Below, piece by piece: positions 30,119 to 64,000 of a stretch of DNA of 64,000 bases. Under the pieces are notes generated by a model. It had not been told where the DNA came from. It did not search any database and worked only from the letters and a program-made list of their open reading frames with translations. The DNA comes from Deltaproteobacteria bacterium (GTDB lineage Bacteria; Desulfobacterota; Desulfomonilia; UBA1062), in the NCBI GenBank assembly GCA_029552245.1, contig JAKPDW010000053.1, positions 1 through 64,000 on the forward strand. Direction: 5' to 3'. The position numbers were made by a program, and so were the translations under genes. How positions within the stretch are numbered: position 1 is the first letter of the stretch; every line of letters starts with the position of its first letter.

Positions 30119-30264
30119 ATCAGCTTCCCTGTCCCTCAAGTGGGTTTGCAGAGCTCCATGCCCGGCTCATGGAACGATCTCGTGGCCATTCGTCATCAAC
30201 CACCCATGGATAAAGACATATAGAGCTGTCGTGCATCATGGGCCTGCCTTTGTCTGCAATTTTT

Positions 30265-40680: not shown

Positions 40681-41535
40681 CTAACCGGTATTTCCATCCC
40701 CTGTGCAGGCGTACTTGCGGGCCATGTACCTGCTGAAGGCGGAACACAGTCTCAGAGCCGTCACGGGAAAGAGCCTCGTGAGCATATCCAGGACCAAGGC
40801 GTCCGTCCCGACGAGGATGCGGCGCCGGTCCCTCTTGATGCCGGCGATGATGACGCGGGCGGCCTCGCCGGCATCCATCCTGAAGAGCTCCTTCTCGTAG
40901 AGGCTCACGGCCCCCTCCTTCGTCAGGGAGCACAACCCGCGGTTGAACTTGGCGTGGCGGGCGATCCCCGTCCTGATGCCCCCCGGGTGTACGCAGCTCA
41001 CGCGTATGTTCGTGCCCTCGAGTTCCTGGGCGAGGGTCTCGGTGTATCCCTTGACCGCGAACTTGGATGCACAGTACGGGCCGTTGTTGGGATTGGGCAG
41101 GATCCCGTTGATGCTGGACACGTTCACGATGTGACCCTCGGGCCTCAGCCTCAGGTGGGGGAGAAACGCCATGGTCCCGTGGACCACGCCCCAGAAGTTC
41201 ACGGCCATGATCCACTCGAAGTCCTCTATCGGGACGGTCTCTAAAAGGTCGCCGAGGGCGACGCCCGCGTTGTTGATGACGAGGTCCACCGAACCATGCA
41301 GGCTCACGGCATCCTGCGCGAACGCGAAGACCCGCTCCCTCCTGGAGACGTCCACCACGTGCGTGGTGACCCTCACCCGGCCGTCTACGAGGGCCGCGGT
41401 CTGCTCGAGACCCCCGTGGTCGATGTCCGCCAGCGCGAGCGAACACCCCTCGCGGGCGAGGTTCACGGCAAGCATCCGGCCGATGCCGGACGCCGCCCCG
41501 GTGATCGCTGCTGTCTTGCCCGCGAGGTTCTTCAC
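40681..41535 (-). CDS. Short-chain dehydrogenase/reductase
   Basis: A 284-residue classical SDR using NAD(P)H. The cofactor motif TGAASGIG is near the N-terminus, followed by Asp in LADIDH (suggesting NAD preference), the NNAG block, the catalytic Ser in NVSSING, and the Tyr-x3-Lys pair in YCASKFAVKGY. The C-terminal 70 residues form a helical extension (LDMLTRLFPVTALRL). The start is GTG 41535, whose G-TGA overlaps the stop of the acyl-CoA dehydrogenase; GGGGGG lies 6 bases before it. It probably oxidises or reduces a 3-hydroxy or 3-keto acyl intermediate of the same operon. Confidence 0.9.
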   Translation of the reverse strand: MKNLAGKTAAITGAASGIGRMLAVNLAREGCSLALADIDHGGLEQTAALVDGRVRVTTHVVDVSRRERVFAFAQDAVSLHGSVDLVINNAGVALGDLLETVPIEDFEWIMAVNFWGVVHGTMAFLPHLRLRPEGHIVNVSSINGILPNPNNGPYCASKFAVKGYTETLAQELEGTNIRVSCVHPGGIRTGIARHAKFNRGLCSLTKEGAVSLYEKELFRMDAGEAARVIIAGIKRDRRRILVGTDALVLDMLTRLFPVTALRLCSAFSRYMARKYACTGDGNTG

Positions 41536-42689
41536 GGCATGCCCCCCTGGCCCAGACTCGCCGTCTTTACGGCCGGCCCCACGAGCGAGAGCTTCTTCAA
41601 GGGGTGAGACCCGAAGACGGCCGAGGCCTGGTGGGCGTCGCGGTAGCGCTTCTCCTGGCCGTAATCCTTCATGTAGCCGTAGCCGCCCAGCACCTGGATG
41701 CCGTCGGACACGACGCCGCAGGCGAGGGAGTGCACCGTCAGCGCAGCCGACGCCGCGTACTCCATGGACGAGGCGTCGCCGTCGAGGGCGAGCCGCGACG
41801 CCTGGGCGAGGGCGAGCCCGGACGACCTGACGGCGATGAGCATGTCGGCGAGCATCATGGTCACCTCGCTCCAGCGCGCGATCTCCCTGCCGCCCTGACG
41901 CCTTTGTACCGCGTATGCCAGTGCGCACTCGTACGAACCCCTCATGATGCCGGCCGATATGGCGGCCGAGGCCACGAGGAGCGCCGCATAGACCGACCCG
42001 AAGGCCTCGCTCCCCTTGTCAGGGCTACAGAGGCGCAGGGCCGGAACCCTGTCAAGGGTCACGTCGGCCGCAGGGCATGCGTGGAAGCCCAGGGTGAGGA
42101 CGGGCCCGCTTTTGGTCACCTCGTCCCTGTCGAGGTCGACCAGGAAGAAGGAGACATCGTCACCGTGGGCGCCTCGAGCGGGCACGACCGCCCTCGTCGC
42201 GACGGTGGCGAGGCTCAACAGGGGCACGGTGCCGCTGAGGACCTCCTGGCCGCCCGGCGAGAGTTCGGCCCTTGGGAGGGTCTCCGCCTCGATGACCGGG
42301 TGGAGGTAGCACGGGAACGCAAGGATGGCTTCCCGCACCGAGGCGGCCCCCGACATGAGTGCGCCTGCGGCCTTCACTCCGGCGCAGGCGCCTGCCGTGA
42401 GCTGGGCGCAGGCGTTGGTGAACACGGCCGCCCCCAGAGACGCATCCACGCTCGAGATCTCCTCGAGGAGGACGCACAGCGTCTCGAGGTCCCCGCCTGC
42501 CCCGCCCAGCTCCTCGGGGATGACGACCCCGAAGAACCCCGCCTCGTAGGCCTTCTCGAGGGTGTCCATGAACAACGGCGCGAACGGGTGACGGTCGTGC
42601 TCGCGGATGTTCGGGGCGAGCTCCTTGGCGGAGAACGCCCTCGCCAGTTCCTTCATGGGTGTGAGTTCCTTCTTGAATACGGTCCCCAT
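41532..42689 (-). CDS. Acyl-CoA dehydrogenase-like protein, divergent
   Basis: 385 residues from ATG 42689 (GGGAGG 4-5 bases upstream). The ACAD fold is recognisable: an N-terminal helical domain (FFGVVIPEELGGAGGDLETL), a middle beta domain, and a C-terminal helical domain with IQVLGGYGYMKDYGQEKRYRDAHQ. The usual catalytic base near the C-terminus (the Glu of the IYEG-T motif) is missing: here the stretch is ASAVFGSHPLKK. The catalytic Glu of the isovaleryl/long-chain subclass is not evident either. It may be a partner or inactive subunit of the next ACAD, or a divergent enzyme. It is operon-internal and overlaps the SDR start. Confidence 0.8.
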   Translation of the reverse strand: MGTVFKKELTPMKELARAFSAKELAPNIREHDRHPFAPLFMDTLEKAYEAGFFGVVIPEELGGAGGDLETLCVLLEEISSVDASLGAAVFTNACAQLTAGACAGVKAAGALMSGAASVREAILAFPCYLHPVIEAETLPRAELSPGGQEVLSGTVPLLSLATVATRAVVPARGAHGDDVSFFLVDLDRDEVTKSGPVLTLGFHACPAADVTLDRVPALRLCSPDKGSEAFGSVYAALLVASAAISAGIMRGSYECALAYAVQRRQGGREIARWSEVTMMLADMLIAVRSSGLALAQASRLALDGDASSMEYAASAALTVHSLACGVVSDGIQVLGGYGYMKDYGQEKRYRDAHQASAVFGSHPLKKLSLVGPAVKTASLGQGGMP

Positions 42690-42705
42690 GAAACCTCCCA
42701 TACGT

Positions 42706-44211
42706 TCACTCGTCGAACATGCGCGCTTTGGGGAAGGATGGCGCGATGAGGCACTTGAAGAGGTTGAGCCTGTTGAGCTGGTTGGTCCCCTCGTAGATCT
42801 GGAGGAGCTTGATGTCGCGGAGCAGCTTCTCGGCCCCCAGGTCGTGCCTGAGCCCGGCGGCGCCCATGATCTCCAGGGCCGCGCGGCAGTTGGCCAGGCC
42901 CAGGTCCGTCCCCGTGATCTTGGCGAGAGAGGCCCAACCGGAACAGCACCTGATGTCTTCCTGCTTCGCCCAGTCGAACGATACCCTGCCCATGAGGTTC
43001 GTGGTGATCCTCTTGTCGAGGGTGGGAGATATCACCCTCTTGAAGTAGGCGTCCGGCATGAGGAGGAAGTAGTAGTAGAGGGGCTTGAACTGGAGCAGCC
43101 TGTAGAGGCCCCTGAGGCTGTTCGCGTGGTTGGCCTCCTGGTAGGCGAGCCTTCCAAGGGCGACGTTGGCGTACATCTGGGCGAGCCTGCTCTGCACCCA
43201 CTCGTGATCGATGAGCGGCCTCCCGTTCAGCTGCGTCTTCGATGCGTAGTCGAGCGCCTTCTCGAGGGCGCCCCTGGCCGCCCCCACACCGAAGGCGCAG
43301 ACGCCCGGCCTGGTCGCGGAGACGACGTAATCGATGTAGGTCTGTGCCAGGGTGCGCCTCGGCTTCTTGGAGAACGCCCGAGCGTGGCCCTCGTCGAACA
43401 GGACCAGCTCGTCCGGGACGAAGCAGTCCTCGAACACGAGCTCGCTCGCAGGGCATGCCCTCTGGCCCATCTTGTCCTCGTGGGAACCCAGGGAGAACCC
43501 CTTCATGCCGGTCTTCACCATGAGGCCCACGGTCGATTCGGCCGGGTGGCGGAGGTCCGTGTAGGCGTACAGGACGGTCCATGTCGAGAGGTGACCCATG
43601 GAGATGAACACCTTGGTGCCGTTGACCACGTAACCACCCTTGACCTTGCGCGCGTGGCAGGAGACGCTGCCCTTGTCGAGGAGCTCCACCTCCTCCACGT
43701 CGGTGCCCGCGCCGGGCTCGGTCACCGCGAGCGAGATCAGGCACGGCCACCCCGAGCGCTCTCCCTCCGCCACCTCCGAGAGGACACGCTTGGCCAGGCG
43801 CGTGTTCGCAGACGATATGACGCCGGCGACGCCCAGGTAATGGACGCCGATCACGTTCATGATGCCCAGGCAGGCTGACGCGACCTCTTCGGAGAAGTAG
43901 GACATGGACGGGAGGTTGTAGCCCTTGCCGCCGAACATCCTCGGTATCCACATGGTGTAGAAGCCCCACCTGTTGGCGGTCTCCACCAGTTCGCGCGGCA
44001 TGTACGAGGGGTCTTCCTGCGTCTTCCGGTCGATCTCGAGGGAGAGAGGCCTGGCGACCTGTTCGTTGAACGCGCGCGCAATGGAGACGACCTCGCGGAT
44101 CTGCTTCACCATGTGGCGGGGCATGCGCACCCCGTAGGAAAGCCCCACGCTCGCGTCGTCGAACGGGGGAAAGTTCGACAGCCGCGCCCTGATTTCAGCC
44201 CTGGATACCAT
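42706..44211 (-). CDS. Acyl-CoA dehydrogenase, long form
   Basis: 501 residues from ATG 44211 with AAGGAGGTGAAC just before it. It is an FAD-dependent acyl-CoA dehydrogenase that makes a 2,3-enoyl-CoA and passes electrons to ETF. Middle-domain blocks SLAVTEPGAGTDVEE and GYVVNGTKVFISMGHLS (FAD contacts) and the C-terminal LQIYEGTNQLNRLNLFKC with the catalytic Glu are all present. It is longer than the 380-residue norm, with an extra N-terminal segment (residues 1-45) and an insertion around 330-400. It is the first structural gene behind the TetR regulator, and the second, catalytically defective ACAD follows after 16 bases. Confidence 0.9.
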   Translation of the reverse strand: MVSRAEIRARLSNFPPFDDASVGLSYGVRMPRHMVKQIREVVSIARAFNEQVARPLSLEIDRKTQEDPSYMPRELVETANRWGFYTMWIPRMFGGKGYNLPSMSYFSEEVASACLGIMNVIGVHYLGVAGVISSANTRLAKRVLSEVAEGERSGWPCLISLAVTEPGAGTDVEEVELLDKGSVSCHARKVKGGYVVNGTKVFISMGHLSTWTVLYAYTDLRHPAESTVGLMVKTGMKGFSLGSHEDKMGQRACPASELVFEDCFVPDELVLFDEGHARAFSKKPRRTLAQTYIDYVVSATRPGVCAFGVGAARGALEKALDYASKTQLNGRPLIDHEWVQSRLAQMYANVALGRLAYQEANHANSLRGLYRLLQFKPLYYYFLLMPDAYFKRVISPTLDKRITTNLMGRVSFDWAKQEDIRCCSGWASLAKITGTDLGLANCRAALEIMGAAGLRHDLGAEKLLRDIKLLQIYEGTNQLNRLNLFKCLIAPSFPKARMFDE

Positions 44212-44281
44212 GTTCACCTCCTTGCAAAGCTGTTGGGAAAGGCGCTCGTGCAGCGTCTTGTATGGACGCTGCGCCCCGAAC

Positions 44282-47550: not shown

Positions 47551-48149
47551 GACACCTCCTCTCGACCTCAAGGAATGGAACCCCGTGCACTGCGCCCTGT
47601 GAGAGCAGACCGTGCACCCTTGTATCACTCTAGGCTGTGAAGCGAAAAAGTCAACCGCACGGTATCGGCGCCCCACGTCCGGCCAGCCTGTAGAGGGCAC
47701 GGACGGCGGCGGTTTCTCATCCACAACCGCCCGGGCCGCACGGCCCGCCCGCAGAGGGCAGGGACGCACCCGGGAGGAGGCCGAGGAGGATCGGGCGAGG
47801 GAGACGGCACATGCCAGGTCTGTTCACGTGGCGTGCCGGGACGTTACAGGGAGGCAGGCCGGGTGAAGGCTTGATCGTCGGTGCGGGTCTTCCCGGCCTC
47901 CTGGTATGCCCGGTATCGCTCTCATGTGCGGGCGTCGTCATCAGGTTGTCCGGGGTGGGAGGCCCTCTCTCCCCACGCCTGTCTCGGCACCCGGAGGCCT
48001 CCTGGCCGAGGTGCCGGCAGGACCGACCCGTGCACAGACGGGGCATGGCCGGACCTGTTGACAGACAAGCGGGCGCCGTTTATACCTTCTTCGTTGAGGA
48101 AAAGACCGAGGACTTGCGGGCGGCTCCCCGGAAGGAGGGTGCTTCGCTC
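47551..48149. other. Divergent gap before the sigma-54 activator
   Basis: About 600 bases between the acyl-CoA synthetase and the sigma-54 activator. An open frame extends left of the activator's chosen start to 47811, but its residues are unlike any domain. It contains the synthetase promoter on the left and nothing else I can support. Confidence 0.5.
47627..47654 (-). promoter_or_regulatory. Candidate sigma-70 promoter of the acyl-CoA synthetase
   Basis: On the minus strand, TTGACT (47649-47654), 16 bases, then TAGAGT (47627-47632), about 80 bases before ATG 47550. The -35 matches 5 of 6, but the -10 is weak (3 of 6). Confidence 0.4.
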
Positions 48150-49949
48150 ATGAAAAGGCTCCAGGAAAGATCGTACCCGAAAGGCGGCAGCGAGAGGATC
48201 GAAGGGCGTCGCTCTCACGGGGTGCCTGCCTCCCCTGTGCCCGGCGATCTCCTCGAGAACATCCTCGACTCGGCCAATTTCGGGCTCATTGCGGCGGACA
48301 GGACGGGGAGGGTGATCTTCGTCAACAGCCTGGCGCGCTCCATTCTCGACATCATGGACGACCTCCTTGATCGTCGGCTGTTCGTGGGGGAGATCGACCC
48401 GGACATGTGGGAGAGCTACCGGGAGATCATGGCCACGGGCAAGCCCCAGGTGAACCTTCCCGTCGTTTTCCGGGACATCCCCCTCGTGAGCCACAGGCTG
48501 CCGATCGTCAGGAACGGGGAGATCATCGGCGCCATGAGCATCTTCAAAGAGCGCGAGGCCTACGAGGAGCTGGCCAACGACGTCTTCAGGCTCAAGGAGT
48601 ACGCAAGGGAGATCGAGGCGATCATCGAGTCATCCTACGACGGCATCTACGTCACCGACGGCGAGGCGAACACCATCCGGGTGAACTCGGTCTACGAGAA
48701 GATAACGGGGATCAAGGCCTCGGAGGTCATCGGCAGGAACATGGAAGAGCTCGTGAGGGAGGGCTACTTCGACGAGAGCGTGAGCCTCAGGGTCTTGAAG
48801 GAGAGAAGACCGGTCACTATCATGCAGACCCTCAAGTCGGGAAAGAGCATCCTGGTGACGGGCAACCCCATCTTCGACGAAGGCGGGAACGTCAGGATGA
48901 TCGTCACGAACGTGCGCGACATGACCGACCTCGTGGAACTCGAGCAGCAGCTCGAGTACACCAAGGGGATGACGAGCGCCTACAGGGACGCGCTCAAGTC
49001 GCTCCAGAAGGCCAACATCCGCGACAACGACATCATCATGGTCTCCGAGCCCATGCTCCACATCCAGGAACTGCTCGAGAGGGTGTCCAAGACGGATTCG
49101 ACGGTCCTCATCTACGGCGAGACGGGCGTCGGCAAGGACAGGATCGCGGAGGAGATCCACGAGAGGTCCCACCGCGCCGAGACGGGGATCTTCGTCAAGA
49201 TCAACTGCGGCGCCATTCCCGAGACCCTCTTGGAGAGCGAGCTCTTCGGGTACGAGAGGGGCGCCTTCACCGGGGCCCGCAAGGAGGGGAAGTCCGGGCT
49301 CTTCGAGGTGGCGAACAGGGGGACCCTCTTCTTGGACGAGGTGGAGTCGATGCCCATGGTCCTCCAGTCGAAGCTCCTGCGGGTGCTCCAGAGCTTCGAG
49401 TTCACGAGGGTGGGGGGGACGAGGCCCATCAAGGTGGACGTGAGGATCATCTGCGCGTCGAACCAGGACCTCAAGGAACTCATCGCGAAGAAACAGTTCA
49501 GGGCGGACCTCTACTACCGCCTGAACGTGATACCCATCTACGTGCCGCCGCTGCGCGAGAGGAGGGACGACATCCCCTACCTCGTGCATTTCTTCCTGAA
49601 CCGGTTCAACAAGAAGCACGGGACAAGGAAGAAGATCTCCAAGGAGGCCATGGACCACTTGGTCGCCTACCCGTGGCCAGGCAACGTCCGCGAGGTGGCG
49701 AACGTCATCGAGCGCCTCGTGGTGATCTCCCACAACGACTACATCGTTCCCGCCAACCTTCCCCGGGAGATCTTCGAGAAGGGGGTGAAGGACTTCTTCG
49801 AGAGCGGCCTCACGCTGAAGGAGCAGATGGGACGGATCGAGGTCTCCATCATCAAGAAGGCGATCGAGAAGTTCGGCAGCGCCCGCAAGGCCGCCCCTCA
49901 CCTGGGGATAGACGCCAGCACGCTCACCAGGAAGCTCAAGAAGCTCTAG
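48150..49949 (+). CDS. Sigma-54-dependent transcriptional activator with PAS domains
   Basis: 599 residues from ATG 48150 (AAGGAGG about 11 bases upstream; the longer frame from 47811 lacks domain support). Two PAS domains lie at about 34-140 and 155-265 (NILDSANFGLIAADRTGRVIF; IIESSYDGIYVTDGEANTI), then the AAA+ sigma-54 domain at 300-530 with Walker A G323-E-T-G-V-G-K329, the sigma-54-contacting GAFTGA loop at 371-376, and a C-terminal Fis-type HTH (KKAIEKFGSARKAAPHLGID). There is no receiver domain, so it senses ligand, redox or metabolite via PAS. It probably drives the near-consensus RpoN promoter at 51490 and the downstream carboxylase operon, but other targets are possible. Confidence 0.92.
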   Translation: MKRLQERSYPKGGSERIEGRRSHGVPASPVPGDLLENILDSANFGLIAADRTGRVIFVNSLARSILDIMDDLLDRRLFVGEIDPDMWESYREIMATGKPQVNLPVVFRDIPLVSHRLPIVRNGEIIGAMSIFKEREAYEELANDVFRLKEYAREIEAIIESSYDGIYVTDGEANTIRVNSVYEKITGIKASEVIGRNMEELVREGYFDESVSLRVLKERRPVTIMQTLKSGKSILVTGNPIFDEGGNVRMIVTNVRDMTDLVELEQQLEYTKGMTSAYRDALKSLQKANIRDNDIIMVSEPMLHIQELLERVSKTDSTVLIYGETGVGKDRIAEEIHERSHRAETGIFVKINCGAIPETLLESELFGYERGAFTGARKEGKSGLFEVANRGTLFLDEVESMPMVLQSKLLRVLQSFEFTRVGGTRPIKVDVRIICASNQDLKELIAKKQFRADLYYRLNVIPIYVPPLRERRDDIPYLVHFFLNRFNKKHGTRKKISKEAMDHLVAYPWPGNVREVANVIERLVVISHNDYIVPANLPREIFEKGVKDFFESGLTLKEQMGRIEVSIIKKAIEKFGSARKAAPHLGIDASTLTRKLKKL

Positions 49950-50208: not shown

Positions 50209-51111
50209 TCAGGAGAGCTCGATCTCCCCCGAGAGCACGCGTTTCCTCTGGCCGCCCGGGCACAAGACGACGAGGGCCCCCTGGCTGTCGACGCCCAGGG
50301 AGACGCCCTCCAGGTGGAGTCCGCCGGCATGCCTCACGAGCACCCTCTTGCCTGTCATGGCCGACATCGAGTTCCACCTCCCTCGGAAGGCATCGAACCC
50401 GGTTGCGAGGAATTCCCGGTACCCCCGGTAGAACGCTTCGAGAAAAGCGGCGACGAAGGACGCGGAGCCGTCCTTCCCGCCCGCCTCCAAGCGGATGGAC
50501 GTCGCCTTGTCCCTTATTTCCGGGGGAAAATCGTGGGCTTCATGGTCCAGGTTCACGCCGACGCCTACCACGAGGTGATCCAGTTCGTCGCCCGTGATCG
50601 ATATCTCGGTGAGGATCCCGGCCAGTTTCTTCCCCCTCGCGAGGATGTCGTTCGGCCACTTAATGCAGGCATGGATGCCGCAGTCATCCCTCAGGGCCTG
50701 AGCGAGGCATACAGCCGTCACCAAAGTGATGCCCGACATCCTGGCCGCACGCATGGCGGGCTTGAGGATCACCGAGAGGTAGAGCCCCTTGCCTTCGGCC
50801 GAGTGCCACGAGCGACCGAACTGACCGCGGCCCGCGGTCTGGGAGTCGGCGATGACGACCGTCCCTTCCGGGTGACCCAGGCGTGCGAGGCTGTGGGCCA
50901 GGCTGTTGGTCGACAAGGTCTCCCGGACGTGGATGACAGGGGCTTTCACTCCCTGCCCCGCAAGGGCGAGCCTCACCCTCCGGGCGAGGTCCGTGTCCCT
51001 GCCGCCGTCCTCCCCCTCGGGTGCACGCGGGTTCGGCTGCGCCTCGGCCTGAAGGGGGATGAGCCCGGGGGCCTCAGGTGCGTTCTGCATGGCATACGTC
51101 GCGTCGCTCAT
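50209..51111 (-). CDS. birA: Biotin-[acetyl-CoA-carboxylase] ligase BirA, without repressor domain
   Basis: A 300-residue biotin protein ligase that attaches biotin to carrier proteins such as the one at 54843. The biotin/AMP motif GRGQFGR at 94-100 and KWPND at 151-155 are canonical, followed by LAGILTEIS, VGVGVNLDHE, and a C-terminal SH3-like domain (TGKRVLVRHAGGLHLEGVSLG). It has no N-terminal winged-helix repressor domain; instead there is a Pro/Glu-rich segment of about 45 residues, so it should act only as a ligase. It sits between the sigma-54 activator and the carboxylase operon, which fits local biotinylation. Confidence 0.93.
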   Translation of the reverse strand: MSDATYAMQNAPEAPGLIPLQAEAQPNPRAPEGEDGGRDTDLARRVRLALAGQGVKAPVIHVRETLSTNSLAHSLARLGHPEGTVVIADSQTAGRGQFGRSWHSAEGKGLYLSVILKPAMRAARMSGITLVTAVCLAQALRDDCGIHACIKWPNDILARGKKLAGILTEISITGDELDHLVVGVGVNLDHEAHDFPPEIRDKATSIRLEAGGKDGSASFVAAFLEAFYRGYREFLATGFDAFRGRWNSMSAMTGKRVLVRHAGGLHLEGVSLGVDSQGALVVLCPGGQRKRVLSGEIELS

Positions 51112-51489: not shown

Positions 51490-51505
51490 TGGCACTTTCT
51501 TTGCT
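51490..51505 (+). promoter_or_regulatory. Sigma-54 promoter of the biotin-carboxylase operon
   Basis: TGGCACTTTCTTTGCT fits TGGCACG-N4-TTGCW with only the 7th base different; GG and GC are separated by 10 bases. It lies in front of the operon on the same strand, and a sigma-54 activator gene is 1.5 kb upstream. Confidence 0.75.
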
Positions 51506-51960: not shown

Positions 51961-52713
51961 ATGAAGGTGGATCTCAATGTGGACATGGGCGAGAGCTTCG
52001 GGATGTACACCATGGGCGACGACGAGAACTTCATGCCCTACATCACGAGCGCCAACGTCGCCTGCGGATTCCATGCGGGTGACCCGTGCGTGATGAAGAA
52101 GACCGTGGCCCTCGCGAAGAAGTACGGCGTACAGGTGGGTGCTCATCCGGGGCTTCCGGACCTCCAGGGATTCGGGAGGAGGGTCATGGAAGTGTCCATG
52201 GAGGAGCTCTACTGCGACCTCATGTACCAGGTGGGCGCGCTCAAGGCCTTCCTGGACGCAGCCGGGATGAGGCTCCATCACGTGAAGCCGCACGGCAAGC
52301 TCTATGGGATGGCGCACACGAGAGAAGAGGTCGCCAAGACGATCTGCGAGGCCATCAGGGATATCGATGCAAGCCTGTACCTCTACTGCATGAAGAAGGG
52401 CGTCCTCGGCCAGGTCGCACAGAGCTACGGCATCAGGCCGGTGTTCGAGGTGTACTCCGACCTCGATTACGACAAGGACGGCAACCTCGTCATCACCAGG
52501 CATCACGAGGCGCACAGCCCTGAGGACGTCGCCGCAAAGGTCATCGGGATGGTGAGAGACGGCAAGGTCAAGACCACCTCGGGCACCGAGATCGCGATCG
52601 AGGGGTCTTCCGTCTGCGTCCACTCGGACAGCCCGGGCGCGATCGAGATCGTGAAAGCGGTCAGGAAGGTCCTCACGGACAACGGTTACACCATCGAGTC
52701 GCCCGGGATCTAG
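51961..52713 (+). CDS. pxpA: LamB/YcsF-family amidohydrolase (PxpA-like 5-oxoprolinase subunit)
   Basis: A 250-residue YcsF-family protein. The signature DLNVDMGESFGMYTMGDDE, then SANVACGFHAGDP (metal-site His), GAHPGLPDLQGFGRR and HHVKPHGKLYGMA are all present. In PxpABC this subunit hydrolyses the activated 5-oxoproline; here it may hydrolyse a carboxylated lactam or amide. The start ATG 51961 has AAGGAGGGGAGT upstream. It is the first gene of a six-gene operon with long AHS1/AHS2 proteins and biotin subunits, which plain PxpABC lacks, so 5-oxoproline is only one possible substrate. Confidence 0.9.
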   Translation: MKVDLNVDMGESFGMYTMGDDENFMPYITSANVACGFHAGDPCVMKKTVALAKKYGVQVGAHPGLPDLQGFGRRVMEVSMEELYCDLMYQVGALKAFLDAAGMRLHHVKPHGKLYGMAHTREEVAKTICEAIRDIDASLYLYCMKKGVLGQVAQSYGIRPVFEVYSDLDYDKDGNLVITRHHEAHSPEDVAAKVIGMVRDGKVKTTSGTEIAIEGSSVCVHSDSPGAIEIVKAVRKVLTDNGYTIESPGI

Positions 52714-52816
52714 CACGCGCCCGTCGTCATGAACCCCGGGCAGGGTGGGCTGACCTTGAGGTAGGGAAAGAAGAGAAGAGGTCCGGTCAATCGATCAAAC
52801 GAAGGGAGGATAGAGG

Positions 52817-53803
52817 ATGGAAGAACGAAAGTACGACGTCATTCTGGCGACGTTGCCTGCGACGAAGACGCGCCTCGAGGTGCTGTTCCGCCAGGCAGGG
52901 GATGGATTCCTACAGGTCGAGTACGGGAGGGTCCAGAGGGCCAACCTGCTCGACTCCTTCAGGATCCAGACGATCGACGCGAAGATCAGGCAGGCGGCCC
53001 CCAAGGGGTTCATCGAAACCCTGCCCGGGATAAGGACGAACATGATCCACTTCGATCCCGAGCAGCTCGACGTCATGAAGCTGATCGACATGATCAAGGG
53101 GTTCGAGGAGGAGCTGGAGGACGTTGACCACATCGTCATGCCGTCGAGGGTCATCCACCTCCCCATCGCGTTCGAGGACAGCGAGACCAAGAAGGCTGTC
53201 GAGAAGTACGTGAAAGAAGTACGGCCCGACGCCCCGAACGTGATCAACGGCTACAATCTCGAATACATCGCCCTGTGCAACGGGATAACCGTCCCCGAGG
53301 TGAAGCAGAAGCTCTTGGGTACGCAGTGGTACAACTCCGGAGGCGGGTTCTGGCCGGGCGGCGCCTTCCTCTGGCCCATGGACCCGAGATGCGCGATCGT
53401 CGTCCCCAAATACAACCCGCCGCGTACGTGGACCCCGGAAGGCACCGTGGGCATCGGCGGGCCCTGCGTCTTCACGTACACCACCCCCACGGGGGGAGGT
53501 TACCAGCTCTTCGGCCGCACCATTCCGGTATTCCAGTTCGCCCAGAAACACCCCCTCTTCAAGGACTCGCCCTTCCTCTACAGGAACGGCGACCGCGTCC
53601 AGTTCCACGAGGTGACGGAGAAGGAGGTCCTCGACATCTTCGAGCACGTCCACAACAAGACGGACTACGTCTACCAGATCGAGGACGGCGAGATCGTGGT
53701 CAAGGACTACATCGCCTTCATCAACTCACCCGAGGTGGTCAAGGGCACAGCCGAGTTCCAGGCCAAGCAGGCCGAGGGTATCAAGAAGGCCCCTCGTCTC
53801 TAA
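52817..53803 (+). CDS. AHS1-like carboxyltransferase subunit, long form (KipI/PxpB-related)
   Basis: 328 residues, about 100 more than the usual PxpB. The C-terminal half is the recognisable AHS1/CT_C_D domain: NGYNLEYIALCNGITVPEV, NSGGGFWPGGAFLWPMDPRC, VPKYNPPRTWTPEGTVGIGG and GGGYQLFGRTIPVFQF, matching the G-F-x-P-G-F and PAGSVAIAG blocks of the family. In urea carboxylase this domain, with AHS2, moves CO2 from carboxybiotin to the substrate nitrogen. The N-terminal 130 residues (ILATLPATKTRLEVLFRQAG; VMPSRVIHLPIAFEDSETKK) match the leading part of the AHS1 fold with an extension. GGGAGGATAGAGG precedes the ATG. The start is well supported. Confidence 0.88.
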   Translation: MEERKYDVILATLPATKTRLEVLFRQAGDGFLQVEYGRVQRANLLDSFRIQTIDAKIRQAAPKGFIETLPGIRTNMIHFDPEQLDVMKLIDMIKGFEEELEDVDHIVMPSRVIHLPIAFEDSETKKAVEKYVKEVRPDAPNVINGYNLEYIALCNGITVPEVKQKLLGTQWYNSGGGFWPGGAFLWPMDPRCAIVVPKYNPPRTWTPEGTVGIGGPCVFTYTTPTGGGYQLFGRTIPVFQFAQKHPLFKDSPFLYRNGDRVQFHEVTEKEVLDIFEHVHNKTDYVYQIEDGEIVVKDYIAFINSPEVVKGTAEFQAKQAEGIKKAPRL

Positions 53804-53825
53804 GAGCACAAGGAGGACAGCACAT

Positions 53826-54812
53826 ATGTTGAAGATCATAAAGCCCGGCATAGAAACCATCGTGGAAGACTGGCCCGGAAGGCTCGGTTACTTGAGCAAG
53901 GGGATGTCGGCATCCGGCGCCATGGATAACGTGTCCCTCCAGTTCGCCAATCTCCTCGTCGGCAACCCCACGGGAGAGGCGGGTCTCGAGGTCGCAGGGG
54001 GCTACTTCGAGGCCGAGTTCATGGAGAACACGGTGATCAGCATCTGCGGGACGGACATGAAGCCGACGATCAACGGGAATCCCATACCCATGTGGGAGGC
54101 GGTCCCCGTGAAGAAGGGCGACGTCCTGAACCTCGGCGTGTTCGGCGAGTTCGGCTTCAGGTCGTACGTGGCCGTTGCAGGCGGCATCGATGTGCCGCCG
54201 TATCTCGGGAGCAAGTCCACCTGCATATTCGGCAGCTACGGCGGGTTCGAGGGGAGGAAGCTCGCCCCCGGCGACGTCCTGAAGTTCGGCAAGCCGGCCC
54301 GCGCGCTCGATACGCTTGCAGGCAGGAAGCTCAAGAAAGGGGTCAAACCCGAGTTCGCTCGGACCTGGGAACTCAGGGCCATCCCGGGGCCGAACACCTG
54401 CCCGGACTACGTCACCAAGGAGGGCATGGATTATCTCTACGAGAACGAGCACAAGATACAGCACACGTCGAACCGCTCGGCGTACCGCATCGAGCCGGTG
54501 CCCGAATACTTCTTCGCACGCGCGGACGGCGGTGTGGGCGGGTCGCACCCCTCGAACATCGTCGACCACGGCTACGCCATCCGCGGGACCATGAACGTGT
54601 GCGGAAACACGCCGATCCTCCTCATAGCAGACGGCCCGACGCTCGGCGGTTACATCAACGTGCTCCACGTCATAAACGCCGACCTCTGGAAGATCGGGCA
54701 GGGGACCCCCGCGAGAGACAAGTTCACGTTCGTCTACTGCACGAGGGAACAGGCCATCGAGGAGCGGAAAAAGCAGCGCGCGCTCTTCACGGAGGACAAC
54801 GTCACCAAGTGA
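53826..54812 (+). CDS. AHS2-like carboxyltransferase subunit (KipA/PxpC-related)
   Basis: A 328-residue AHS2/CT_A_B protein, the partner of AHS1: GIETIVEDWPGRLGYLSKGM, SASGAMDNVSLQFANLLVGNP, LEVAGGYFEAEFMENTVISI, YVAVAGGIDVPPYLGSKST and FGSYGGFEGRKLAPGDVL are the family blocks. VKPEFARTWELRAIPGPN and TSNRSAYRIEPVP (the substrate-side Arg region) follow. It probably forms a heterodimer with the preceding subunit as the carboxyltransferase. AAGGAGGACAG lies before the ATG, 22 bases after AHS1, so the two are co-transcribed and probably made in similar amounts. Confidence 0.92.
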   Translation: MLKIIKPGIETIVEDWPGRLGYLSKGMSASGAMDNVSLQFANLLVGNPTGEAGLEVAGGYFEAEFMENTVISICGTDMKPTINGNPIPMWEAVPVKKGDVLNLGVFGEFGFRSYVAVAGGIDVPPYLGSKSTCIFGSYGGFEGRKLAPGDVLKFGKPARALDTLAGRKLKKGVKPEFARTWELRAIPGPNTCPDYVTKEGMDYLYENEHKIQHTSNRSAYRIEPVPEYFFARADGGVGGSHPSNIVDHGYAIRGTMNVCGNTPILLIADGPTLGGYINVLHVINADLWKIGQGTPARDKFTFVYCTREQAIEERKKQRALFTEDNVTK

Positions 54813-54842
54813 CGCAGCGACAGACCAGCACAAGGAGGACAT

Positions 54843-55061
54843 ATGGATCACAAGGTTACTGCTACCATGCCCGGCCTCGTGGCCCGGGTGGTCGTGAACG
54901 TGGGTGAGAAGGTGGCGGAGGGACAGGAGGTCGCGGTGATCAACTGCATGAAGACCGAGATAAGCGTCAAGGCGGACAAGCCCGGCGCGGTCAAGGAGAT
55001 CCTCGTCAAGGAGTGGGACGAGATGCAGGTGGGAGACCCCATGGTCGTCCTCGAGATCTGA
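54843..55061 (+). CDS. Biotin carboxyl carrier protein (stand-alone biotinyl domain)
   Basis: A 72-residue biotinyl/lipoyl domain with no N-terminal extension. Lys37 in INCMKTEISVKADKPG is the expected biotinylation site; the usual AMKM is replaced by CMKT. Ile/Val strands and the second-half G-D-P-M-V-V-L-E-I end are normal. It would carry carboxybiotin from the biotin carboxylase (55983) to the AHS1/AHS2 carboxyltransferase. The AAGGAGGACAT ribosome site is nearly the same as that of AHS2. BirA lies just upstream of the operon. Lipoylation is not excluded, but the adjacent biotin carboxylase decides for biotin. Confidence 0.93.
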   Translation: MDHKVTATMPGLVARVVVNVGEKVAEGQEVAVINCMKTEISVKADKPGAVKEILVKEWDEMQVGDPMVVLEI

Positions 55062-55219
55062 TTCCCCTGCCTGGATGATGACGAAAGGACGGACAGGAGA
55101 CCGGTCATGCGGGCGGCGCTGAGACCTGAGGATGGAGGGATGCGGGGGAGAACCCTCGATCTCTGTCCCCGGGACCTCCGTCTGCCCCGTGACCTCATAT
55201 ACCGACAGGAGGTGCGTTC

Positions 55220-55825
55220 ATGTCAGATGGAAAAGATGTCAACGTCACTATAAAGATCGCCGATGCAGGGCCTGGCGGTTGGATAGCCTACTCCATCGCC
55301 ACGTGGATCGCCTGGGCATTCCTCTGCGGTTTCGTCGGGCCGAAGGCGCTCCTTCTCATGGCCTGCATATCGCTTGCGTGCACGATCCCGTATCTCGGAG
55401 CGGCCATTACCCAGCTCAAGCTCGGGAACGTGGCGGGTGGCGTCACCTGGTTGTACTTCGGGGCGTTCTTCGCCTTTTGCTCGGCCCTTACCTATTTTGT
55501 CAGTTATTTCGCCCCGATATACGGGTGGGAGCTGGATGCGAAGGTGCTCGGGTTCGAGTGGGCGGTACTCGGCGTGACCCTCATACTCACCACCCCGATC
55601 TTCCTGAAGTACGCGCCGGCATCCGCGTCGATCTCGGTCATAGGAGCCGATGTGGGCATCGCGTTCCTCGTGCTCATCTATTTCGGCTATGCGTCGCCTG
55701 CGGTCATGCAGATCAGCGGGTGGGGGTTCTTCGTGGCCGGGCTGTTCGGCATCGTGATGACGGTGGGAGGAATTCTCTGTGCAGCAGGCATGAAGTTCCC
55801 CATGGGTGCGCCGCTCATCAAATGA
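55220..55825 (+). CDS. Six-helix membrane protein, YaaH/GPR1/FUN34-like transporter
   Basis: 201 residues with six predicted membrane helices (WIAYSIATWIAWAFLCGFVG, LLLMACISLACTIPYLG, and four more). The segment QLKLGNVAGGVTWLYFGAFFAFCSAL resembles the acetate/succinate uptake YaaH family, which has a similar GN-x-G ... YGxFW block, though the canonical NPAPLG N-terminus is absent, so the assignment is tentative. AGGAGGTGCGTTC precedes the ATG. It sits between the biotin carrier and biotin carboxylase genes and probably imports the operon's small substrate (a carboxylate, amide or urea-like compound). The substrate is not known. Confidence 0.65.
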   Translation: MSDGKDVNVTIKIADAGPGGWIAYSIATWIAWAFLCGFVGPKALLLMACISLACTIPYLGAAITQLKLGNVAGGVTWLYFGAFFAFCSALTYFVSYFAPIYGWELDAKVLGFEWAVLGVTLILTTPIFLKYAPASASISVIGADVGIAFLVLIYFGYASPAVMQISGWGFFVAGLFGIVMTVGGILCAAGMKFPMGAPLIK

Positions 55826-55982
55826 CCGGGACCGACAGGAGACTCGAGGTTCATGCCTGGGTGCATGGGGGCAGGGTGCTCGCTGGACGCCACGGAAGCA
55901 CGGAAGGCCGCAATCCTTGTCCCCTTGTCCCCTTCATGAGCGGACAGGGCACGAGATTCCAGAAACGAGAGAGGACCACACC

Positions 55983-57335
55983 ATGAAGAAAGTGCTCATA
56001 GCCAATCGTGGGGAGATCGTGCTTCGGGTTATCAGGGCGGCCAGGGAACTCGGCCTGAAGACGGTGGCCGTGTACTCCGACGCCGACGAGAACGCGATGC
56101 ACGTGAGAGAGGCGGACGAGGCGTACCACATCGGGAAATCACCGCCCCCCATGAGCTACCTGAACATCGCCAACATTCTCGATGCAGTGAAACGGTCGGG
56201 AGCCGACGCCGTCCATCCGGGCTACGGGTTCCTCTCCGAAAACGCGGACTTCGCGAAGGCGGTGGTGGAGAGCGGGACCACGTGGGTGGGACCGTCGCCC
56301 CAGGTGCTCCACAGCATTGAGTCGAAGTCGTACTGCAGGAAGCTCGGCCGGAAACTGGGGGTGCCTATCACACCCGGCACGGCCGACAACGTCGATGACG
56401 TGGAGACGATCGTAAGGCTGTTCAGGGAACTCGGCCCGCCGCTCCTTCTGAAGCTGGACAAGGGAGGCGGAGGGAAAGGCATTCAGCCCATCTGCACCGA
56501 GGACCAAATCGTCCCGGTCTTCGAGTCGTCGAAGAGCATCGGGAAGATGGCCTTCGGTTCACCCGAGTGCTATGTCGAGAAGCGCATCGCCAACCCACGC
56601 CACATAGAGGTTCAGTGCCTGGGTGACAACGAGGGAAACTACGTGGCCCTGGGCGAGCGCGAGTGCTCCGTCCAACGCAAGTACCAGAAGGTCGTCGAGG
56701 AGGGTCCTTCTCCCGTGGTCTCGGTCGAGGACCGGCAAAAGCTCCAGTCCTGGGCCGTGAGCATACTCAGGGAGATGGGGTACAACAACGCCGGCACGGT
56801 GGAGTTCTTGCGGGACGAGAACGGCAATTTCTACTTCATGGAAGTGAATGCACGGATCCAGGTGGAACACCCGGTCACCGAGATGATAACCGGGATGGAC
56901 CTGGTCAAGACCCAGCTCTTGATCGCCATGGGCGAGAGGCTCGGCATCCGCCAGGAAGACGTGAACATACGGGGGAACGCCATAGAGCTGCGTATCTATG
57001 CCGAGGACCCCTTTACCTTCGTGCCGTCTCCGGGCACCGTGACCGAGATCGCGTTCCCCCGGCTGTCGAACGGCGTGAGGCTCGACCACGCGCTCGAGCC
57101 GGGCCTCAAGGTCTCCCCCTTCTACGACCCCATGCTGGCCAAGCTCATCGTCCACGCAGCCGACAGGCGCGGGGCCATCGAGCTCATGAAGGAGAGCCTG
57201 AGGGCCTTCCGCATCGAGGGGGTCAAGACGACCATACCGCTCGGGCTCCTGATCATGGAGTCGGACGCCTTCGTGGAAGGCAGCTTCACTACCGACACGC
57301 TGGCGGGGCTCATAGAGGCGGCGACAACGAGGTGA
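55983..57335 (+). CDS. Biotin carboxylase subunit (AccC-like)
   Basis: A 450-residue ATP-grasp biotin carboxylase that uses ATP and bicarbonate to carboxylate the biotin on the carrier at 54843. MKKVLIANRGEI at the N-terminus, the glycine-rich loop DKGGGGKG at 159-166, ERECSVQRKYQKVVEEGPSP, and MEVNARIQVEHPVTEMITGMDL are all intact. Glu/Arg active-site residues are conserved with E. coli AccC. I use ATG 55983 (GAGAGGACCACACC upstream). It is the last gene of the operon. It could in principle also serve acetyl-CoA carboxylase, but the dedicated carrier and AHS subunits point to a substrate-specific carboxylase. Confidence 0.94.
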   Translation: MKKVLIANRGEIVLRVIRAARELGLKTVAVYSDADENAMHVREADEAYHIGKSPPPMSYLNIANILDAVKRSGADAVHPGYGFLSENADFAKAVVESGTTWVGPSPQVLHSIESKSYCRKLGRKLGVPITPGTADNVDDVETIVRLFRELGPPLLLKLDKGGGGKGIQPICTEDQIVPVFESSKSIGKMAFGSPECYVEKRIANPRHIEVQCLGDNEGNYVALGERECSVQRKYQKVVEEGPSPVVSVEDRQKLQSWAVSILREMGYNNAGTVEFLRDENGNFYFMEVNARIQVEHPVTEMITGMDLVKTQLLIAMGERLGIRQEDVNIRGNAIELRIYAEDPFTFVPSPGTVTEIAFPRLSNGVRLDHALEPGLKVSPFYDPMLAKLIVHAADRRGAIELMKESLRAFRIEGVKTTIPLGLLIMESDAFVEGSFTTDTLAGLIEAATTR

Positions 57336-60985: not shown

Positions 60986-63900
60986 TCACCTGCAGCCGGG
61001 TGTGCTCTCGGGGGCCTCGTCCGGCTTGAGCATCACGCAGATCGACCTCCTGCCGTCCACCTTGATGGTGAGGGGGCTCGCGAGCCGCGCGTGGCGCAGG
61101 TGGGGGGTCTCGGCCTCGACCGGCAGCGACTTCATCCAATCCCAGTCGATGAAGTCGTCCGTCTTCTCGGTGATGGTCACGTACGGGATGCCGAGCGAGG
61201 TGATGTTCAGGAAGAAGTGGGATCCCTGCGACGGGTCGGCCTTGATGAGCCCGCCCCTGAGCTCGACGATGGCGCCCACCCCCGATATGTGTTTCCACTG
61301 GACCGGCACGCCGAGCCACCTGTCGAACGAGCCCCACCTTCCTGGACCGACGAGGAGGTAGGGCCTGGCCTGTGAGAGCAGCGAACCGTTTATCCTTCCC
61401 ACCTCCTCCGCGATCTGGGGCGTGGCCTCCAAACGGAAGTCTTCTGGCTTCACGAAGACGATGTCCGAGATGTCCCTCCTCGTCCCGTTGCCGAGCGCCA
61501 GGTGGGAGAGGCAGAAGGCGCCCGCCTTGTCCCGCTGGGTTATCTCGACCTCGATGCCCACCTCTTCCGTCGCCATGGGCCTGACCTGGAGGAGGTAGAA
61601 CGCGCAGAAATCAGGCCGTTCCTCGAAGAGGTTCACGGCGAACTCCATCTCGACCGCCAGCCCCATGCCCCTCGACGCGACGTCGAGGAGGTCCGAGATG
61701 ATCTCCGGCAGGGGGACCGACCGGTACTTGAGGATGTGCGCGAAGGTGACCACCTTGCCCCCCGGTCCGTATCCCGTGTCCACGATCCGGTGCTCCGACG
61801 GGTCGTACGTGCTCGTGCACGCGACGACGGGGAACTCGTCGGTCGCATCGTAGATCTCCCGCCTCTCGAGGAAGAGGCGGTCCAGCCCGTTCTGCACATC
61901 CGCCCGTCCTTTCATCCTCAGCGCGTAGAAGAACCTCTGGGAGTTGGAGAGGATGTCGTCCACGGTCGAGAACTGGGGGAGGATCTCTGGATAGCGGGGA
62001 GAAAACCTCAGGGATTGACCGCCTTCCACGACGGTCTTGCCGAAGCCCACGGCCATGTGCACGATCCCGTCTTCCGGCCGCATGGGATGGATGGGGTAGT
62101 AGTTATGCGAGAGGGCCACGCCGGATATCGCCGGGTAGAAGAAGTCGCCGTAGGGCCTCCCGACCAGCTCCTGGACGATCACCCCCATCGCCTCGTCCTT
62201 CGCCTGGCTCGCCGTGCTCTTCGTGAACGCCTTGGGCCCCTCGAAGTAGGTCGACGCGTAGACGAGCTTTATGGCCGCCTCGAGGGATGCCAGCCTGTGT
62301 TTCGGGGACGGGTCGTTGTTGGGGATCATGTAGGTGGCGTAGAGGCCCGCATACGGCTGGAACTGGGCGTCCTCGAGCAGGCTTGAGGATCTGACGGAGA
62401 GGGGGCAGGTGACCTGGGAGAGGTAGGTCTCGAGATCCTCGAGCACCCCTTCGTCCAGCCTGCACTCGAGGAAGGCGCGGGCCACCTCGCCGTCGGGGCG
62501 ATCCTCGGAAGCGTACCGCTTGAGATCGTTCCTCTCCACGAATTCCTCGAAGACGTCGGTGGCGAGCACGACGCTTCGGGGGATCCGGATCTCCGCGTTG
62601 CGGTACTTTTCCAGGAGGTCCATGTTCTCCTGCAGCATCGAGGACATGAACGCCAGTCCTCTCGCCTTCCCGCCGAGCGACCCCTTCCCGATCTTCGCGA
62701 ACTGGAGGAGATCCGCGTCGAACTCCTTCCTGTTGAACTGGACGACCACGCCCTTCTGCCTGAGCCTCCTCACCGATCGGACGAGCTTGACCACGTGGCT
62801 TCGCAACTGGGACGCGGACGGGAACGAGGAGCACGACAGTGCCCGTATGGCCTTTGCGAGCGGTATCTCGGAACGCATCATGATCCAGTTGGCCATGTCC
62901 TTCTGCTCGATGTGCAGCATGAGCGATTCCTCGGGGATCGTCTGGAGCCGCTCCTCGAGCTCCCTGAGCTTGGCCGCCCTGCCCACCTCTTTCCCGTCCG
63001 GCAGCCTGAACACGAACTCGCCGAACCCGAGGCGCCTCAGGAAAAACCCCCGGATCTGCTCGATGACGTCAGGTGAGTTCTTGTCTATGAAGTCAGCCGG
63101 TATGAGACGGGCCTTCGTCTTGTTTTCGCCCTCCGAGCTCATGAGGAGCAGGGGGAGGTGAGGCAGCTCCCTGCGCGCCCTCGAGAGCAGCTCGACGCCG
63201 GCGTCCGTGTGCATCCTGCACTCTCTCGGGAAGCGGGTGTCCGATATGATGCCGAGGAGGTTCTGCTTGTACTTCTCGAAGAGTTCCTGTGCCTCTTCGT
63301 AGGTCCGCGCCCAGAGGATCTTGGGCCTGGTCCTCATGATGAGGAGACGTTCCTCCGCGTTGACGCCGAGCTCGAGCACGGCTTGTATCTGCCTCACCAC
63401 CTCCTTGTAGAAGATGGGCAGGAGCCTCGAGTAGTACAGGGGCGAGTCCTCCACGAGGATGAGCACGCACACGTCCGCGTGCGCCGTGTCGTACTCGGCG
63501 TTCATGGCGTCTTCCGTGCTCTTGACGATGGCGAGCAGCAGCTCGGCGTCACCGGACCAGATGAACACCTTGTCGACCCCTTCGTGGGAGACGAGCTCGC
63601 CGGAGGTCTGGAGCCCCCTGAGGCTGTGCGCGAGCAGGTACACGGGCAGGGCCGGGTCTTTCTCCTTGATCTTTCTGCCCAGCGAGAAGGCATCCATGTC
63701 CTCGAGGTTGGGCATGGTGATGACGAGGTCGAACTGCCGCTCTTGGAGGAGGTCGAGCGCCCTCTTGGCCGAGGACGTCCTGGTGACCCTGGGGGGCTGG
63801 GACAGGTTGAGGCCGCTGTACTCGGTGACGATACGGGAAGCAAGCGTGACGTCTTCCTCGATGACGAAGGCGTCGTAGCGGCTCGATACGAGGAGGATCT

Positions 63901-64000
63901 CCCTGATCTTCCTGGCCATGAGCTCCAGGAAGACCTTGAAGTCGAGCCTGAACATCGCCTGGAGTTCCCGCTCGCCGAGGTCGGTGAGGTCGTCTCGCGT
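60986..64000 (-). CDS. PEP/pyruvate-binding-domain protein with receiver-like N-terminal regions (5' end beyond window)
   Basis: At least 1004 residues, open to the window end; the first ATG in the window is at 63955, but 15 more codons upstream are open without a start, so the true start is likely beyond it. N-terminal residues (numbered from that ATG) about 17-150 and 165-310 resemble receiver folds (REILLVSSRYDAFVIEEDVT; ADVCVLILVEDSPLYYSRLL). From about 420 it is the PPDK/PEP-synthase ATP-binding domain: IGKGSLGGKARGLAFM, PLSVRSSSLLEDAQFQPYAGLYATY, FGKTVVEGGQSLRFSPRYPE and the end FYLLQVRPM. The mobile phosphohistidine and PEP-binding barrel domains are absent, so it is not a full PEP synthase. 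Such proteins are known from deltaproteobacteria, with unknown role. Confidence 0.85.
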   Translation of the reverse strand, partial: TRDDLTDLGERELQAMFRLDFKVFLELMARKIREILLVSSRYDAFVIEEDVTLASRIVTEYSGLNLSQPPRVTRTSSAKRALDLLQERQFDLVITMPNLEDMDAFSLGRKIKEKDPALPVYLLAHSLRGLQTSGELVSHEGVDKVFIWSGDAELLLAIVKSTEDAMNAEYDTAHADVCVLILVEDSPLYYSRLLPIFYKEVVRQIQAVLELGVNAEERLLIMRTRPKILWARTYEEAQELFEKYKQNLLGIISDTRFPRECRMHTDAGVELLSRARRELPHLPLLLMSSEGENKTKARLIPADFIDKNSPDVIEQIRGFFLRRLGFGEFVFRLPDGKEVGRAAKLRELEERLQTIPEESLMLHIEQKDMANWIMMRSEIPLAKAIRALSCSSFPSASQLRSHVVKLVRSVRRLRQKGVVVQFNRKEFDADLLQFAKIGKGSLGGKARGLAFMSSMLQENMDLLEKYRNAEIRIPRSVVLATDVFEEFVERNDLKRYASEDRPDGEVARAFLECRLDEGVLEDLETYLSQVTCPLSVRSSSLLEDAQFQPYAGLYATYMIPNNDPSPKHRLASLEAAIKLVYASTYFEGPKAFTKSTASQAKDEAMGVIVQELVGRPYGDFFYPAISGVALSHNYYPIHPMRPEDGIVHMAVGFGKTVVEGGQSLRFSPRYPEILPQFSTVDDILSNSQRFFYALRMKGRADVQNGLDRLFLERREIYDATDEFPVVACTSTYDPSEHRIVDTGYGPGGKVVTFAHILKYRSVPLPEIISDLLDVASRGMGLAVEMEFAVNLFEERPDFCAFYLLQVRPMATEEVGIEVEITQRDKAGAFCLSHLALGNGTRRDISDIVFVKPEDFRLEATPQIAEEVGRINGSLLSQARPYLLVGPGRWGSFDRWLGVPVQWKHISGVGAIVELRGGLIKADPSQGSHFFLNITSLGIPYVTITEKTDDFIDWDWMKSLPVEAETPHLRHARLASPLTIKVDGRRSICVMLKPDEAPESTPGCR

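Follow-up and report, generated by a model that had tools for sequence, protein, structure and literature searches.

A dissected biotin-dependent carboxylase operon with a YcsF-family hydrolase, a probable bacterial lactamase

We analysed a 64,000-nucleotide stretch of contig JAKPDW010000053.1 (assembly GCA_029552245.1, a Deltaproteobacteria bacterium), called the window below. A preliminary description had placed there an operon encoding biotin carboxylase (BC), biotin carrier protein (BCCP), AHS1, AHS2 and a YcsF hydrolase as separate proteins. Unless a locus name is given, all coordinates are positions in the window. Six genes, all with intact open reading frames (ORFs), occupy 51961-57335, tightly spaced on one strand, and the five announced proteins were each named by Pfam or NCBIfam models:

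51961..52713, + strand: YcsF/PxpA-family hydrolase (PF03746, E 3.4e-95; NF003814 above cut-off); Leu168 replaces the Arg of PxpA
52817..53803, + strand: AHS1, carboxyltransferase subdomain C/D (PF02682); base Lys198
53826..54812, + strand: AHS2, carboxyltransferase subdomain A/B (PF02626); own clade in the tree
54843..55061, + strand: BCCP, 72 aa (PF00364); Lys37 within INCMKTE
55220..55825, + strand: membrane protein, 201 aa, six-helix, SatP-like fold (AlphaFold and Foldseek)
55983..57335, + strand: BC (PF00289, PF02786, PF02785); catalytic positions kept, own clade

Conservation of the operon

The YcsF copy is the only one in the window's genome, and it passes the PxpA subfamily model NF003814 (318 bits for a cut-off of 226). 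The two carboxyltransferase halves fall far under the models for the other 5-oxoprolinase subunits: AHS1 scores 47.3 against a cut-off of 145.55 for PxpB (TIGR00370), and AHS2 185.6 against 500 for PxpC (NF045499). In sequence searches of the structure database, AHS1, AHS2 and BC were nearest to fused urea carboxylases, the best PDB match of both AHS1 and AHS2 being the K. lactis urea carboxylase. The urea carboxylase model TIGR02712 was not reached by the operon parts, which are four separate ORFs (229.8, 286.6, 482.1 and 42.3 bits, for a cut-off of 1303.85).

Relatives were gathered by a contig scan, genome searches and fetched regions, yielding a clade of 37 AHS2 loci, the window's included. 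It contains near-duplicates (L011/L013, L081/L082, L086/L087 and L056/L059/L091) and several short contigs; four intermediates (L060, L061, L093 and L094) were excluded from the clade counts. As controls, 20 PxpBC loci of the same phylum were hand-picked from the lower-scoring places of the phylum AHS2 search. The contig scan gave 18 loci, among them Clostridium ljungdahlii, Acetobacterium bakii, Pelotomaculum and Desulfobulbaceae. In the phylum sample, 8 of 395 genomes carry a clade AHS2, counting the window's genome (65-100% identity, the next match being at 45%). The class of Pelotomaculum has carriers in 10 of 113 genomes, one family sample in 6 of 20 (plus two lower matches at 40-41%), and two further samples in 3 of 198 and 1 of 67. 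The class of C. ljungdahlii yielded a single carrier among 391 genomes, C. ljungdahlii itself; three further matches there (38-39%) are ∼1200-aa urea carboxylases, judged by length. The window's own family is represented by 11 other genomes, and none gave an AHS2 match at E 1e-20; the operon was therefore probably acquired laterally.

Linkage was scored by tblastn around AHS2 (E 1e-8, with alignment over no less than 45% of the query). YcsF and BCCP were each found at 36 of the 37 clade loci, AHS1 at 34 and BC at 31; among the remaining six, L014 and L016 have an incomplete BC gene, truncated by the end of the contig. Around the control PxpBC genes, YcsF was found at 19 loci out of 20, and BC and BCCP at none. 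Based on the clade counts for YcsF, BCCP and BC, we conclude that the grouping of these genes is beyond chance.

Trees were quick IQ-TREE runs, with SH-aLRT support only. On the AHS2 tree, from which the short L019 was left out, 36 clade rows sit on a single branch (support 100); moving outward, Thermomicrobium roseum and G379 come next (91), then the fused urea carboxylases (99), and PxpC stands apart (98). The AHS1 tree resolves the clade (100), the urea carboxylases (100) and PxpB (99). A tree comparison with PxpABC and urea amidolyases had been proposed in the preliminary description; both AHS1 and AHS2 form clades separate from these two systems. The same description took a grouping of BC or BCCP with the housekeeping acetyl-CoA carboxylase as an argument against its reading. 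On the BC tree (without L014 and L016, which are short), the 31 clade rows come together instead (100), apart from urea-carboxylase BCs and from the AccC sample, which consisted of the E. coli protein and the two further BCs of the window's genome. The YcsF tree is less clean: PxpA makes one branch (97), and the clade YcsF proteins need 4 changes, L006 and L017 being apart.

According to PMC5770610, carboxyl transfer in the K. lactis urea amidolyase most likely depends on Lys1605 as its essential general base, and Lys198 of AHS1 aligns with this residue. This column holds Lys in all 34 clade rows having a letter there, in 6/6 urea carboxylases and in 4/4 intermediates, but Arg (19/21) or Leu (2/21) in PxpB. 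Among 15 catalytic positions checked in BC, in what we take to be the E. coli AccC numbering, 14 are invariant across the 31 clade BCs, while position 236 is variable (Tyr in 19, His in 11, Phe in 1). The window and most clade rows have the BCCP motif INCMKTE; in L008, L010, L019 and L090 the carrier motif is of the usual AMKM/SMKM form, and BC was not found nearby in those loci.

A side observation concerns the Clostridia, where the operon BC has a C-terminal Cytidylate_kin2 domain (PF13189), as shown for L012:4661-6619; L011:1378-3339 is alike by eye. In L017, the domain forms a separate gene just before AHS1 (L017:6368-6967).

Proposed reaction and alternatives

We think that the operon probably encodes a dissected biotin-dependent lactamase, the most likely reaction being the opening of 2-pyrrolidinone (gamma-butyrolactam, the lactam of gamma-aminobutyrate, GABA) to GABA. 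BC would spend ATP to carboxylate, with bicarbonate, the biotin that BirA would have attached to the 72-aa carrier. AHS1 and AHS2 would pass the carboxyl on to the amide of the lactam, which would be small, neutral and most likely 2-pyrrolidinone; the ring amide would thereby be weakened, and YcsF would open the activated ring. The resulting N-carboxy amino acid would release CO2, which would therefore serve as a recycled activating tag, ATP paying for an otherwise unfavourable hydrolysis. GABA would go to succinic semialdehyde through a GABA aminotransferase with glutamate dehydrogenase (GDH), and onward, in the window's genome, via 4-hydroxybutyrate and 4-hydroxybutyryl-CoA towards crotonyl-CoA, or, in the relatives, probably to succinate by way of aldehyde:ferredoxin oxidoreductase. 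Carboxylation of an amide or lactam nitrogen on biotin followed by hydrolysis by YcsF was already the preliminary reading, and would fit the linkage, the BC clade and the conserved carboxyltransferase base Lys. Its open list of substrates can be shortened: a lactam is retained, likely a small neutral one giving GABA, whereas urea, guanidine and 5-oxoproline become less likely in view of the neighbouring genes and of Leu168.

The neighbours were counted on raw loci, near-duplicates included, an aminotransferase being scored if it lay no more than 10 kb away and reached 50% identity. A GABA-type aminotransferase was found at 17 of the 37 clade loci, compared to 0 of the 20 controls (Fisher 1.5e-4, no kinship correction); two PxpBC controls show a 32% match, under the 50% rule. 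The position of this recurrent class-III aminotransferase varies: L054 to L059 have it between YcsF and AHS1, and it precedes AHS1 in C. ljungdahlii (L011) and BC in A. bakii (L012) and follows the channel gene in L086. Eight were tested; seven passed the TIGR00700 GABA transaminase cut-off (those of six clade loci and of the intermediate L060), and the eighth (L002) is a putrescine aminotransferase. Also recorded were aldehyde:ferredoxin oxidoreductase (9/37 clade loci, 1/20 controls), GDH (5/37 and 0/20), an OYE-type NADPH dehydrogenase (11/37 and 1/20) and a TorT-type binding protein (9/37 and 0/20). In L054 and L086, most recurrent neighbour genes lie on one strand.

On the window's own contig, a run of genes follows past the end of the window (contig positions, all on the − strand):

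64182-65573: GDH, over model cut-off
65800-70510: branched-chain-type ABC transporter, by eye
70708-72018: GABA-type aminotransferase, 552.7 bits against the TIGR00700 cut-off of 506.65, 55% identical to that of L086
72067-73218: Fe-ADH, a generic alcohol dehydrogenase (4-hydroxybutyrate dehydrogenase model at 248.3 for a cut-off of 500)
within 73265-74842, the true start probably lying inside: CoA-transferase, nearest to solved 4-hydroxybutyrate CoA-transferases
74868-76328: dehydratase, nearest to 1u8v, 'gamma-aminobutyrate metabolism dehydratase/isomerase' (678.7 bits)

In GABA fermentation via 4-hydroxybutyrate, as in C. aminobutyricum, a transaminase, a 4-hydroxybutyrate dehydrogenase, a CoA-transferase and a dehydratase act together, and the genes downstream would, from their sequences, make up such a route. 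In the phylum sample, 4-hydroxybutyryl-CoA dehydratase was present in 8/8 carriers of the operon, compared to 94/387 non-carriers (Fisher 1.6e-5, kinship uncorrected).

Several observations weigh against a GABA-forming lactamase. The window's aminotransferase is 17 kb from AHS2 and on the opposite strand, and 20 of the 37 loci have no GABA-type aminotransferase within 10 kb, some of them through short contigs. To our knowledge, TIGR00700 does not tell GABA from 5-aminovalerate transaminases. The YcsF proteins of L006 and L017 retain Arg168. Finally, the dehydratase is found in 10 of the 11 operon-free relatives of the window's family, meaning that the downstream run may be native and older than the operon, the lactam genes being a later addition, and it is present in only 19 of the 32 carriers tested. 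With these two counts, and kinship uncorrected, we gave the dehydratase little weight as a genome-wide marker of the operon.

The same chemistry could act on 5-oxo-L-proline and yield glutamate, which would make the operon a biotin-dependent 5-oxoprolinase. The YcsF score above the NF003814 cut-off would suit this substrate, as would the retention of the residues common to PxpA, and the GDH neighbours equally suit a glutamate product. We nevertheless hold it rather unlikely. Column 168 of YcsF, the only one passing the clade-versus-PxpA separation rule, is Leu in 34 of 36 clade rows and Arg in 20/20 PxpA, where this Arg may hold the carboxylate of 5-oxoproline; position 179 is also Arg in 20/20 PxpA, and mostly Glu or Thr in the clade. 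Moreover AHS1 and AHS2 remain far under the PxpB and PxpC cut-offs, and a GABA-type aminotransferase has no role in going from 5-oxoproline to glutamate.

A larger lactam, 2-piperidone (delta-valerolactam), opened to 5-aminovalerate, or several lactams, could be handled by the same machine, but we regard this as unlikely. The window's regulator resembles PrdR, the proline reductase regulator, and 5-aminovalerate is the product of proline reductase; GABA and 5-aminovalerate transaminases are also alike. Against it, the nearest solved structures mark both the CoA-transferase and the dehydratase close to the operon as C4-type enzymes, and the L054 run ends in a second gene of the same dehydratase family.

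It is very unlikely that the operon encodes a urea or guanidine-type carboxylase, with YcsF replacing allophanate hydrolase. We know of no allophanate activity in YcsF, the AHS2 clade stands apart from the fused urea carboxylases, and neither an amidase signature nor a UAAP1/UAAP2 homologue was found in any of the 37 clade loci, so that a urea amidolyase with a substituted hydrolase was rejected. In its favour are the structure-database searches, which place AHS1, AHS2 and BC nearest to such enzymes, and a C. ljungdahlii table in which CLJU_c20480 is listed as 'urea carboxylase' and CLJU_c20510 as '5-oxoprolinase subunit A', with values given there as 4.98 and 4.57, two genes that may be those of L011 (PMC10458427). 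As for BC and BCCP being housekeeping acetyl-CoA carboxylase subunits lying by chance beside a PxpABC-like set, the top NCBIfam models for BC are indeed acetyl-CoA carboxylase subunits, every one below its cut-off, but the idea is scarcely credible and was discarded on the BC tree and on the linkage across loci of two phyla, to which are added the Lys-for-Arg difference in AHS1 and the two other BC genes of the window's genome.

Regulation, transport and other genes

Upstream of the operon, three features may bear on its expression or on biotin attachment:

47811..49949, + strand: PAS/sigma-54-dependent activator (PF00158, PF00989), PrdR-related but under the PrdR cut-off (NF041552, 444 bits against 795)
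50209..51111, − strand: BirA biotin-protein ligase (TIGR00121, 197 bits, cut-off 83.1)
51490..51505, + strand: sigma-54 (−24/−12) promoter-like site TGGCACTTTCTTTGCT, score 22.5 of 23

A homologue of the activator was found in 17 of the 37 clade loci. The BirA gene, which had been announced as lying nearby, is there, and 5 of the 37 loci have one. The sigma-54-like site is ∼455 bases before YcsF, and an equal score was reached in 1 of 300 random windows. Sites scoring at least 21 precede the operons of the window, L006 and L086, i.e. 3 of the 7 regions scanned; in L054, L057, L081 and L088 the site is weaker or absent. A scan of sigma-70 sites found none.

The 201-aa membrane protein had been called a transporter. 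By sequence no Pfam or NCBIfam match was obtained, whereas its AlphaFold model (pLDDT 82.2) resembles the SatP succinate-acetate channel (Foldseek E 3e-05 to 2e-04, TM-score 0.74-0.76 on model length). It is thus, by predicted structure, a candidate channel for the substrate or the product, with homologues in 9 of the 37 clade loci. An AmiS/UreI amide channel was also considered, and was rejected as Foldseek ranks SatP first and gives UreI only E 0.45.

Other genes were noticed on the way. HyuA/HyuB-type hydantoinase genes, recognised by mutual homology and by eye, lie near the operon at L006:11829-15835 and L092:14390-18387, two loci that also have a GABA-type aminotransferase. HyuA-type relatives flank the operon in 2 of 37 clade loci. 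Upstream of the operon, the window contains a BKACE-family gene (PF05853, 35651-36562) and acyl-CoA dehydrogenase genes (41532-44217, the second one, 42706-44217, by eye). A 3699-aa ORF (19040-30139, − strand) encodes a single chain with domains of the glycosyltransferase, TPR, radical SAM and methyltransferase types, and the product of 60986-63955 (− strand) combines a response-regulator receiver match with an ATP-binding domain of the PPDK_N family.

Comparison with known systems

PxpABC has the YcsF, AHS1 and AHS2 families side by side, as in the operon. It differs by the absence of BC and BCCP at its loci (0/20), by a PxpB residue that is mostly Arg in place of Lys198, by Arg168 in PxpA, and by separate trees. 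Urea carboxylase and urea amidolyase are built from the same BC, carboxyltransferase and BCCP parts, keep the base Lys, and are the sister group in the AHS2 tree, but there the parts are fused in a ∼1200-aa chain that goes with allophanate hydrolase, whereas the operon has four separate proteins and YcsF. Split carboxyltransferase genes were noted as unstudied in 2011 (PMC3199775, section 8), and no description of a bacterial biotin-dependent YcsF system was found in titles and abstracts of the open-licence PMC literature.

Two clusters come close to the operon, on plasmid pRL12 of Rhizobium johnstonii (L094) and on a plasmid of Thermomicrobium roseum (L093). Both have PxpA, a BCCP-type gene and both carboxyltransferase halves, with the base Lys kept, but their AHS2 is only 39-43% identical and falls outside the clade. 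The R. johnstonii YcsF keeps Arg168, and this cluster could therefore be a biotin-dependent 5-oxoprolinase. The T. roseum cluster adds BioY and a xanthine-dehydrogenase-family gene.

CapAB and OplAB open lactams with ATP and bicarbonate, and no biotin, as described in PMC8453981 and PMC11033972. The operon would share this ATP- and bicarbonate-dependent opening, although the proteins are unrelated and biotin-free. According to PMC11033972, OplAB has trace activity only on gamma-butyrolactam, and no enzymatic route to mild cleavage of gamma- and delta-lactams was known to the authors of this 2023 paper. Such lactams are exceptionally stable, and the operon is a concrete, expressible candidate for their cleavage. 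It would also give a function to acetogen and sulfate-reducer genes labelled 'urea carboxylase' or '5-oxoprolinase subunit', and would yield two residue rules separating biotin-dependent lactamases from PxpABC. More broadly, we see an even chance that biotin-linked opening of gamma-lactams forms a bacterial class, in which unactivated lactams would be carboxylated, hydrolysed and decarboxylated with recycling of CO2, and 2-pyrrolidinone fermented anaerobically via GABA. The change from Arg168 to Leu in YcsF would then mark a switch of substrate, neutral lactams taking the place of 5-oxoproline, and Arg or Lys in AHS1 would separate biotin-free from biotin-dependent transfer.

In fungi, LamA is a single large urea-carboxylase-like protein. 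According to PMC3412718, the ycsF gene is related to the Aspergillus nidulans gene lamB, which serves the utilization of lactams such as 2-pyrrolidinone, and kipA is related to a urea amidolyase of yeast. AmdR regulates lamA and lamB along with gatA and gabA, which are omega-amino-acid genes (PMC8016842). In Trichoderma, lamB shares a segment, described as of unknown function in PMC8675399, with genes for a urea carboxylase and an NADPH dehydrogenase, and the OYE-type NADPH dehydrogenase gene near 11 clade loci recalls this arrangement. As far as the fungal genes are described, the likeness lies in urea-carboxylase-like parts accompanied by a LamB/YcsF protein, and in the association with GABA transaminase genes (17/37 within 10 kb in the clade, 0/20 in controls, and on the same contig for the window). 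The operon differs in that its urea-carboxylase-like parts are split over four proteins, its hosts are anaerobic bacteria and its neighbours are genes of GABA fermentation. Because a urea-carboxylase-like enzyme paired with LamB for lactams exists in fungi, the pairing would be of a known type, now dissected in bacteria, and the operon is best read, by analogy, as the bacterial counterpart of lamA/lamB.

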